NCBI RefSeq assembly: GCF_003671765.1 | Contig: NZ_QPIB01000043.1 | Span: forward strand, 186,001 to 250,000 | Direction: 5' to 3' | Source of the DNA: Xenophilus sp. E41 | GTDB lineage: Bacteria; Pseudomonadota; Gammaproteobacteria; Burkholderiales; Burkholderiaceae_C | Length of the DNA stretch: 64,000 nucleotides | Part shown: positions 20,252-50,068 of the stretch, one piece after another | How positions within the stretch are numbered: position 1 is the first letter of the stretch | Layout: the number at the start of each line of letters is the position of its first letter | Translations under genes and position numbers: made by a program | Notes under the pieces: model-generated | Database searches by the model: none | The model's input: only the letters and a program-made list of their open reading frames with translations | Told to the model about the DNA's origin: nothing

Positions 20252-20683
20252 GTGAGTGTTTTGGCCATGCCCGATGCCGCCCACCCCGCCGTTCCTCCTC
20301 ATTTCCAGAGCTTTCTCGCTTTCGATTTCGGCCAGAAGCGCACCGGCGTCGCCAGCGGCAACCGACTGCTGAAGACCGCCACCCCGCAGGGCACGATCGC
20401 CGCACAGGGGGATGCGCGCTTCGCGCAGATCGAGGCCCGGGTGCGCGAGTGGCAGCCCGACGCGCTGGTGGTGGGCGTCCCTTACCACCCCGACGGCGCC
20501 GCACACGACAACACGCGCGCCGCGCAGCGTTTCGCGCGCCAGCTGCATGGGCGCCTCAGGCTGCCGGTGTACGAGGTCGATGAGCGCTACAGCACCACCG
20601 AGGCCCTGGCCGCCGGCGCCCGCGACGCCGATGCCGCCAGCGCCTGCATCATCCTTGAACAATTCCTGAGGACCCTCCCGTGA
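20252..20683 (+). CDS. ruvX: Putative Holliday junction resolvase RuvX (YqgF)
   Basis: A 143-residue RNase H-fold protein with the catalytic region FLAFDFGQKRTGVASG, then LVVGVPYHPDG and VDERYSTTEA, all typical of YqgF/RuvX. E. coli YqgF processes the 5' end of pre-16S rRNA and has also been described as a resolvase. The frame opens at GTG 20252; an ATG at 20267 (MPDAAHPAVPP) is an equally possible start, since the family usually begins close to the FDFG motif. Second gene of the yqgE-ruvX-pyrR-pyrB group. Confidence 0.92.
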   Translation: MSVLAMPDAAHPAVPPHFQSFLAFDFGQKRTGVASGNRLLKTATPQGTIAAQGDARFAQIEARVREWQPDALVVGVPYHPDGAAHDNTRAAQRFARQLHGRLRLPVYEVDERYSTTEALAAGARDADAASACIILEQFLRTLP

Positions 20684-20686
20684 GAC

Positions 20687-20762
20687 ATCACACCCACGCC
20701 CACTGCTTTGCGTGGTCGCAGCCCCTCGAGGGGCTGCGCCTTCACCCCGGGGCGGCCCGGCG
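20687..20762 (+). repeat. GCCCC-hairpin intergenic repeat, copy a (ruvX-pyrR)
   Basis: A 76-base gap filled by two hairpins: CCACGC...GCGTGG, then a perfect palindrome with 11-base arms (CGCAGCCCCTC/GAGGGGCTGCG, 20717-20738). CCCCGGGGCGGCCCGGCG then runs up to the pyrR ATG. It is a diverged copy of the repeat at 21267-21348 and 49980-50068, lacking their terminal Shine-Dalgarno stem. Confidence 0.65.
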
Positions 20763-21266
20763 ATGAAAGCGCCTGCGATGCCCGAAGCCGAAGCGCTCTA
20801 TGCCGAGCTGCTCGCCGGCGTGAAGACGCTGCTGCGTGCCGACACCAAGCTGGTCGGCATCACCTCCGGCGGTGCCTGGCTGGTGGAGCGCCTGCACAAG
20901 GACCTGGGCCTGCCGGGCTCGCCGGGCGTGATCTCCTCGGCCATGCACCGCGACGACTTCGCCCAGCGCGGCATGACGGCCAGTGCCCAGACCACGCTGC
21001 CCTTCGAGATCGACGGCGCCGACGTGCTCCTGCTCGACGACGTGCTCTACACCGGCCGCACCATCCGCGCGGTGCTCAACGAGCTGTTCGACTTCGGCCG
21101 CCCCGCCTGCGTGCGCCTGGCGGTGATGGTCGACCGCGGGGGCCGGCAACTGCCCGTGGCGGCCGATTTCGCCGCCGCGCGCTTCACGCTGCCCGACACG
21201 CAGTTGCTGGCCCTGGCGCGCGAAGAGGACGGCCGTCTGCGCTTCCACGTCGAGGAGACGCCATGA
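20763..21266 (+). CDS. pyrR: Bifunctional pyrimidine regulator PyrR / uracil phosphoribosyltransferase
   Basis: A 167-residue phosphoribosyltransferase-fold protein. The PRPP-binding motif is clear in [36 protein letters not shown] and [15 protein letters not shown] are also typical. In Gram-positive bacteria PyrR binds pyr mRNA to attenuate transcription; in proteobacteria its regulatory role is less established and it may act mainly as an uracil phosphoribosyltransferase or a local regulator. It directly precedes pyrB, with repeat hairpins on both sides that could serve as RNA targets (inference). Start taken at ATG 20763; the frame is open upstream through the repeat. Confidence 0.9.
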
Positions 21267-21348
21267 ACCCCCGCGCTCATCACTGCGTGTGTTCGCTGCC
21301 CCTCATGGGGGCGCAGGCCGCCGTCGGGGCGGCGCGTCGGGAGGCCTG
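21267..21348 (+). repeat. GCCCC-hairpin repeat with Shine-Dalgarno stem, copy b (pyrR-pyrB)
   Basis: The whole 82-base gap is a copy of this repeat. The GCCCC...GGGGC hairpin is followed by a segment that can fold two ways: CAGGCC (21314-21319) with GGCCTG at the pyrB start, covering GGGAGG, or the local GCCGCC...GGCGGC hairpin, leaving GGGAGG free. The last bases GGGAGGCCTG are the ribosome binding site of pyrB. The aligned copy at 49980-50068 keeps both pairings with different bases. Confidence 0.75.
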
Positions 21349-22311
21349 ATGCTCTACAAGCGCAACCCCCAGCTCAACAAGAACGGCGAGCTCATCCACC
21401 TGCTGTCCATCGAAGGGCTGCCGAAGTCGATCCTCACGCACATCCTCGACACGGCCGCCAACTTCGTGAGCGTGAGCGACCGCGAGGTCAAGAAGGTGCC
21501 GCTGCTGCGCGGCAAGAGCGTGTTCAACCTCTTCTTCGAGAACAGCACGCGCACGCGCACCACCTTCGAGATCGCGGCCAAGCGCCTGTCGGCCGACGTC
21601 ATCAACCTGGACATCGCGCGCTCCTCGGCCAGCAAGGGCGAATCGCTGCTCGACACGATCGCCAACCTGAGCGCGATGGCGGCCGACCTCTTCGTGGTGC
21701 GGCACAGCGAATCGGGTGCGCCCTACCTGATCGCGCAGCACGTGGCGCCGCACGTGCATGTCATCAACGCCGGCGACGGGCGCCATGCGCACCCCACGCA
21801 GGGGCTGCTCGACATGTACACCATCCGCCACTACAAGAAGGACTTCAGCAACCTCACGGTGGCGATCGTGGGCGACGTGCTGCATTCCCGCGTGGCCCGC
21901 TCCGACATCCATGCGCTCACCACGCTGGGCGCCGCAGAGGTGCGCGTGGTGGGCCCGCGAACGCTGGTGCCCGGCGACCTGGCGCCCATGGGCGTGAAGG
22001 TCTTCCACTCGCTCGAAGAAGGCATTCGGGATTGCGACGTGGTCATCATGCTGCGCTTGCAGAACGAGCGCATGAGCGGCGCGCTGCTGCCCTCGAGCCA
22101 GGAATACTTCAAGACCTACGGCCTCACGCCCGAGAAGCTGCAGCTGGCCAGGCCCGACGCGATCGTGATGCACCCCGGCCCCATCAACCGCGGCGTGGAG
22201 ATCGCGTCCGAGGTGGTCGACGGCAAGCAGAGCGTCATCCTGCCGCAGGTGACCTTCGGCATCGCGTGCCGGATGGCCGTGATGAGCATCGTCGCCGGCA
22301 ACGAGGCGTGA
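21349..22311 (+). CDS. pyrB: Aspartate carbamoyltransferase catalytic subunit
   Basis: A 320-residue enzyme joining carbamoyl phosphate and aspartate, the committed step of pyrimidine synthesis. Motifs: carbamoyl-phosphate loop [12 protein letters not shown], the [12 protein letters not shown] loop, [12 protein letters not shown], and MMLRLQNER-type [10 protein letters not shown]. Start taken at ATG 21349, preceded by GGGAGG; the open frame upstream translates the repeat and is not credible. It is followed by a catalytically dead dihydroorotase homologue, the arrangement in which ATCase forms a dodecamer with PyrC'. Also note the inverted-repeat element inserted after its stop. Confidence 0.96.
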
Positions 22312-49979: not shown

Positions 49980-50068
49980 TCAAGCCTCCTGATGAGCCGC
50001 CTCGAAGGAGGCTTGCGCCCCCTCGGGGGGCAGCGAGTACACGAAGTGAGGAGCGTGGGGGAACATGG
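49980..50068 (-). repeat. GCCCC-hairpin repeat with Shine-Dalgarno stem, copy c (ligA-ligB)
   Basis: On the minus strand the gap holds a CACG/CGTG hairpin, GCCCCC...GGGGGC, and then AAGCCTCC, which pairs with GGAGGCTT just before the ligB ATG. AAGCCTCC can alternatively form the local GCCTC-CTTC-GAGGC hairpin and leave GGAGG free. It aligns base for base with copy b upstream of pyrB, keeping both stems with changed base pairs. Confidence 0.8.

Follow-up and report, generated by a model that had tools for sequence, protein, structure and literature searches.

The Xenophilus sp. E41 genome carries a hairpin-forming sequence between ligA and ligB, the genes identified by family matches as those for protocatechuate 4,5-dioxygenase alpha and beta, and the Shine-Dalgarno sequence of ligB lies within one arm of its terminal stem. 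The question raised by this locus is what such a sequence is doing between two genes of an operon. An earlier note, written from the sequence of the window alone (the 64,000-nucleotide stretch analysed here, positions 186,001 to 250,000 of contig NZ_QPIB01000043.1), had proposed that it is a mobile-looking repeat, found also before pyrB, that brings a switchable translation-control module to unrelated operons.

A dispersed family of hairpin repeats

The gaps before ligB, pyrB and pyrR hold three copies of one repeat, recognised by a single covariance model (R1) and placed, as the earlier note had stated for ligB and pyrB, in identical orientation relative to the downstream gene. Their features are as follows:

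49981..50064, minus strand (the sense strand): repeat copy between ligA and ligB (R1 90.5 bits, E 3.1e-16)
49980..50066, minus strand: mini-ORF of the ligB copy, 28 codons as read from the sequence; its TGA (49982-49980) abuts the ligB ATG (49979-49977)
50006..50015, minus strand: 5′ arm of the terminal stem of the ligB copy, CAAGCCTCCT, with 10/10 pairs
49981..49990, minus strand: 3′ arm of the same stem, AGGAGGCTTG, which includes the ligB Shine-Dalgarno sequence AGGAGG (49990-49985)
20688..20771, plus strand: repeat copy between ruvX and pyrR (R1 65.9 bits, E 2.2e-11)
20680..20766, plus strand: mini-ORF of the pyrR copy, 28 codons; its GTG start overlaps the ruvX stop (GTGA)
21265..21348, plus strand: repeat copy between pyrR and pyrB (R1 70.3 bits, E 2.9e-12)
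21263..21349, plus strand: mini-ORF of the pyrB copy, 28 codons; its ATG overlaps the pyrR stop and its TGA overlaps the pyrB ATG (TGATG, 21347-21351)

The three copies belong to a dispersed family of ~80-bp hairpin elements, with 73 R1 matches at E≤0.1 in the Xenophilus sp. E41 genome (5.84 Mb, 47 contigs), which bears out the description of the repeat as dispersed and mobile-looking. Searching the genome by blastn with the ligB copy gave 41 matches and with the pyrB copy 17. Thirty-nine of the 73 R1 matches were analysed in detail, and it is from these 39, the ligB, pyrB and pyrR copies among them, that R1 was built. The genome stretches fetched contained 40 copies, the search pattern missing five (L035, L041, L049, L057 and L060). 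The first match of L045 is doubtful: it was excluded from the alignment and from the flank-similarity test and is counted among the 40 in the arm-exchange test described below. The final set of 39 includes the three window copies and L014. A search of Rfam with the window and five loci returned no relevant family.

The 39 aligned copies are 79-84 nt long (measured from the initial CCCCC to the position 10 nt beyond the loop) and have a mean GC content of 77% (range 66.7-85.7%). Read along the sense strand, each comprises CCCCCACGCTC, a small variable hairpin, a conserved hairpin CGCTGCCCCCC-GAGGGGGC and then the terminal stem, in which a variable 5′ arm, a loop near TTGGGGCGGCCCGGC or TTCGGGCGGCCGGGC and a variable 3′ arm follow one another. 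No constant inverted counterpart of the constant 5′ sequence CCCCCACG is present at the 3′ end; the arms that do match each other are subterminal and variable. Copies also occur in tandem, at L055 and elsewhere; L055 has two copies in Xenophilus sp. E41 and in genome G008 and one in G002 and G012.

Insertion at empty sites

We compared the orthologous sites of 17 copies across four to six genomes of the same genus. At 14 of the 17 loci at least one relative has an empty site (judged by eye, and only roughly so at L055), whilst L043, L056 and L058 have no clean empty site among the relatives, again by eye. When both flanks of the element were compared with the empty target at 16 loci, using one relative per locus chosen by eye, each flank matched better than in any of 5000 permutations. 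The two flanks also resemble each other, with a similarity of 6.21 against 5.0 (sd 0.21) in the 39 copies and of 6.18 against 4.99 (sd 0.16) in a further set of 62 copies from several genera. The empty sites and duplicated flanks together identify the copies as insertions, with target duplications that are short and imperfect; in duplicating its target site, the element behaves as a MITE does.

One example is L048, which lies inside a short-chain dehydrogenase gene. Of five relatives compared there, four are shorter at this position, by 84, 84, 84 or 81 bp, and the insert is bordered on both sides by GCGGCAAGAT. Within coding sequence the usable net inserts measure 84 or 81 bp at L048, 84 bp at L062 and L034, 81 bp at L052 and 87 bp at L054, all of them multiples of three. 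At junctions between genes the values are 83 bp at L036 and L038 (80 bp against one L036 relative), 86 bp at L037 and 91 bp both at L063 and for the tandem unit of L055. Automatic insert lengths were not used for L027, L043, L044, L047, L056, L058 and L064, where they are blurred by other differences. At the junction orthologous to L027, genome G004 has a different, longer GC-rich insert (L164) in place of the repeat, so that this junction may be a hot spot for insertion.

Copies within genes and at operon junctions

Sixteen of the 39 copies interrupt protein genes without breaking the frame, with a single-frame coding signal on both sides; five of these are oriented in sense and 11 in antisense. 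The host genes recognised by family match include those for glycerol kinase, RecG, an aminotransferase and UvrA-like proteins (three copies), and there are matches below the curated cut-off, obtained with cut-out pieces, to PEP carboxylase and PBP1C-type hosts. The host gene of L029 gave no NCBIfam match. All three copies in UvrA-like genes are in frame and antisense (L042, contig C44 ~28957; L051, C45 ~91148; L052, C45 ~88487), and two of them are merely 2.7 kb apart. Insertion in frame within unrelated protein genes is a behaviour known from the Rickettsia palindromic elements, palindromes of ~150 bp (PMC10969869). The likeness is one of behaviour only: those elements are longer and belong to Rickettsia, and mini-ORFs at stop/start junctions do not figure in the available portion of their description (PMC10969869).

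Eighteen further copies, chosen by hand, are found at operon stop/start junctions, all in sense orientation and just upstream of a start codon, leaving five outside both classes (L043, L046, L050, L053 and L064). In every one of the 18 a mini-ORF of 26-31 codons runs through the element, beginning in the upstream flank (with GTG before pyrR and with ATG in the others) and ending on or adjoining the start codon of the next gene. If the nearest ATG is chosen automatically, this rule holds for 17 of the 18 copies, whereas in the two remaining frames it holds for 0 and 4; L038, the one that departs from it, obeys it from its other ATG. The set from several genera gave a similar picture. Eighty loci were listed, 21 of them without a full element by the search pattern, and the 62 copies fell into 37 junction, one coding and 24 other copies (training of the coding score used the window alone, so that coding copies in other genera may be missed). 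The mini-ORF rule holds for 30 of these 37 junction copies, against 5 and 3 in the other frames, and seven deviate from it. Where the start and stop codons lie in the duplicated target, the pattern could arise in part from the choice of target.

Overlap between the stop and start codons of adjacent reading frames is a general means of translational coupling. The mini-ORFs resemble the leader of a translationally coupled gene, in that they end on or right beside the following start codon, with the difference that here a mobile repeat situated between the two genes supplies the frame.

In the ruvX-pyrR-pyrB region, the mini-ORF of the pyrR copy stops within the ATGA of the pyrR start (ATG 20763-20765), and a mini-ORF is preserved in 6/6 pyrB and 5/5 pyrR junctions of the genus that are filled, the pyrR element being present in 5 of 14 genomes. 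The pyrB mini-ORF of G006 and G010 begins at a TTG and ends 4 nt short of the ATG. In G008 the mini-ORFs persist even though the conserved GC hairpin is missing from the pyrB copy and the terminal stem from the pyrR copy (the latter by eye). In several genomes without the element, pyrR begins with a GTG overlapping the ruvX stop, and in the five filled genomes with an ATG at the edge of the element; judging from these sequences, the pyrR start codon appears to have shifted where the element is present.

Might the peptides themselves matter, with the mini-ORF products or the in-frame insertions having a conserved activity? A recurrent string (SLPPEGA, for example) does appear in several frames and copies, as a functional peptide might. 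The element is, however, read in three sense and two antisense frames depending on the copy, and the peptides of orthologous mini-ORFs diverge, whilst their length and stop stay the same. We consider a functional peptide the most improbable of the explanations weighed here.

Hairpins or reading frame?

The terminal stem covaries. All seven of its pairs show changes on both sides among the 39 copies, with 84.6% of cells paired, which bears out for this stem the compensatory change described in the earlier note. The whole-structure covariation score is 0.406, compared with 0.044-0.136 when the structure is slid, although by one further measure covariation is not above that of shuffled alignments (23 further pair types against a shuffled mean of 26.4). 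The mean stem score of the 40 pattern matches is 6.56 and drops to 4.65 when arms are exchanged among them (sd 0.19; maximum of 1000 permutations 5.33), and the same kind of test on the 62 copies from several genera, taken from titled contigs, gives 7.95 against 3.83 (sd 0.20; maximum of 2000 permutations 4.52). Even the pyrR copy, which had been thought to lack this stem, possesses it: GCGCCTTCA and TGAAAGCGC form 8 of 9 pairs, and the 3′ arm overlaps the pyrR start codon.

These properties could be taken to favour a mobile translation switch, the 5′ arm having a choice of partners between the Shine-Dalgarno sequence and an inner segment. The Shine-Dalgarno sequences of ligB and pyrB do lie within the 3′ arm of the terminal stem, as the earlier note described, and eight of the 18 junction copies have such a motif inside the element, within the arm. 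The terminal stem is also present in the minimum-energy structure of the ligB leader folded alone, whose stability is no better than that of shuffled sequences (z -0.67). A switch requires two competing stems, however, and the inner alternative stems, said to be kept between the ligB and pyrB copies, pair no more often than chance would allow: in the two registers 42.7% and 55.9% of cells are paired over the 39 copies, compared with shuffled means of 42.5 and 55.2. In 10 of the 18 junction copies the motif used finds no Shine-Dalgarno sequence, and the minimum-energy structure of the pyrB leader folded alone does not contain the terminal stem (z -2.33). The two features of the family by which the earlier note would have told a control module from an ordinary REP-like repeat point in different directions, in that the terminal stem covaries but just 18 of the 39 copies stand before start codons, the other 21 lying elsewhere. 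Since the arms match each other whatever the location of the copy, the fact that they covary does not speak for control of translation.

Among 14 genomes of the genus, seven have an empty ligB junction (TGACATG), six have a remnant of the element there and only Xenophilus sp. E41 has a full copy. In the six remnants an internal deletion has removed both stems, which are thus missing in six of the seven genomes with any element at this site. What remains is a mini-ORF of nine codons (11 from an earlier ATG), with the same TGAATG end and with frame and AGGAGG kept. With the stems lost and the frame retained, the remnants speak against conservation of a hairpin switch and suggest that it is the frame that is under constraint. 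That start, frame and stop persist after most of the element has gone suggests, from the sequences compared, that the frame is still used. Taking these results together, we regard a switch as very unlikely.

In our judgement the element is likely to be a mobile hairpin repeat, probably BRE (see below), that survives where reading frame and coupling are preserved, its hairpins not forming a conserved translation switch. Insertion at a junction duplicates a short target, and a start codon at the upstream edge opens the mini-ORF through the element. Ribosomes arriving from the upstream gene would translate it, opening the hairpins en route, and on reaching a stop at the start of the next gene would restart there; we infer such reinitiation from the arrangement of the codons. 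The element would persist where frame and coupling were preserved, and the hairpins would belong to the mobile DNA.

It is quite possible, although we do not favour it, that the repeat is purely selfish, the frames marking those insertions that are cheap or non-lethal and the coupling giving the host nothing. This alternative conflicts with the explanation just set out on function only. It would account for the in-frame copies in many unrelated protein genes, the many sites that are empty in relatives and the divergence of peptides between orthologues; it sits less easily with the ligB remnant, which keeps start, frame and stop despite having lost most of the element. If coupling does operate, the repeat would be a widespread mobile element that operons and proteins can accommodate, owing to a frame-preserving sequence that lets ribosomes pass, and covarying hairpins at start sites should be read as riboregulators with caution.

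Relation to the BRE repeats

The repeat is not confined to Xenophilus. Sixteen of 150 genomes from the order contain matches at E≤1e-4, with stricter filters and at most 30 candidates scored per genome, and a 29-letter search pattern, chosen from copies in two other families of the order, matched at least 120 stretches. Among the 80 matches listed are Burkholderia, Paraburkholderia, Trinickia, Achromobacter, Verticiella, Pigmentiphaga, Rubrivivax, Leptothrix, Thauera, Azoarcus, Zoogloea, Methyloversatilis and Ramlibacter, with one Stutzerimonas and one Stagnimonas record as outliers. The flanks of the copy from Stutzerimonas stutzeri KOS6 (L350, NZ_KK020677.1) are almost identical to those of L276 (genome G064) and L367, and this gammaproteobacterial copy would reflect transfer or contamination.

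Several of these genera belong to the families Comamonadaceae, Alcaligenaceae and Rhodocyclaceae, the range of a repeat already described.

This repeat, the Betaproteobacterial repeat element (BRE), is ~90 bp long (75-91 bp), dispersed, found in tandem arrays and in both intergenic and intracoding positions, and distributed across those three families; past mobility was suspected and its function was left open by its describers (Hot et al. 2011; PMC3110155, as far as the available portion of that paper goes). Our copies fit the published length (79-84 nt, with net insertions of 81-91 bp) and the published range (with copies in Achromobacter, Verticiella, Pigmentiphaga, Azoarcus, Thauera, Ramlibacter and others), and tandem, intergenic and intracoding copies are common to both (16 of 39 are coding here). 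The mean GC content of 77% in Xenophilus sp. E41 is to be set beside 69.0% (63.7-78.9%) for BRE in Bordetella, a different organism (PMC3110155). Covarying arms, target duplication, a mini-ORF and a frame rule are absent from the available part of the BRE description (PMC3110155). In the B. pertussis group BRE copies would be expected beside lexA. No convincing copy was seen at 64 lexA-family loci, of which ~50 come from the family that includes Achromobacter sp. MYb9 and among which that species may be missing, and a simple search for tandems at these loci found nothing. The repeat is probably BRE, an identification that follows from description (length, range and arrangement) rather than from a sequence match. 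Among the open PMC papers listed by our searches we saw nothing later on how BRE moves or on mini-ORFs at gene junctions. Were the coupling described above to be real, it would give BRE a testable role.

Copy-specific arms and the question of mobility

Elsewhere, REPs are moved by the products of single-copy Y1 genes, and a REP-type element mobilised by such a RAYT-like transposase would be in keeping with the one Y1_Tnp match in Xenophilus sp. E41. The element is longer than a REP (79-84 nt against 20-40 bp, the latter from the available portion of the source), no convincing copy lies within 1.5 kb of eight of nine Y1 matches (best E 0.18), and the copy-rich genomes G153 (at least 30 copies) and G173 (22 copies) have no Y1_Tnp match, all of which makes this origin highly improbable. 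With neither flanking copies nor a match in these copy-rich genomes, the Y1 transposase is unsupported as the mobiliser, and the search, in which Y1_Tnp was tested, found no mobilising enzyme. The Y1-transposase-like gene L423 (C32:153635-153961) lies downstream of a methyltransferase-like frame, with no repeat copy within 1.5 kb.

The arms themselves, matched within each copy and specific to it, pose a clear question of mechanism. At L037 they read CAGCACC/GGTGCTG in Xenophilus sp. E41 and CAGTGCC/GGCACCG (6/7 pairs) in G002, and at L027 CGCCTCCC/GGGAGGCG in Xenophilus sp. E41 and G012 as against TGCCTCCC/GGGAGGCA in G013 and G002. Since the two arms differ together at orthologous sites, matching arms must be maintained or rewritten after insertion. 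Three pairs of copies (L027/L038, L055/L056 and L034/L040) have identical 48-column cores with unrelated, self-matching arms, whereas the near-identical cores of L031/L032 and L039/L042/L043 share arms, so that the copies demonstrate neither simple inheritance of the arms nor their rewriting throughout. Across the set, arm similarity and core similarity are weakly correlated (Mantel r 0.244; permutation sd 0.07, maximum 0.278 of 2000).

There is modest evidence, from sequence comparison, that the 5′ arm matches the target: scored against the complement of its own empty target it gives 5.44 compared with 4.56 (sd 0.28; 18 of 5000 permutations as good), and in a direct-strand control 578 of 5000 permutations were as good. 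We would tentatively entertain the idea that with each insertion the element copies the inverted target into its terminal hairpin, or that base-pairing by the arm picks targets, either of which would amount to target-templated or target-guided mobility. The copies in genome G168 (L269-L275) have a TTTTTCATC-like arm in common; several of these are located just before terminator-like hairpins and after A-rich TGAAAAA targets, which by eye is a different site preference.
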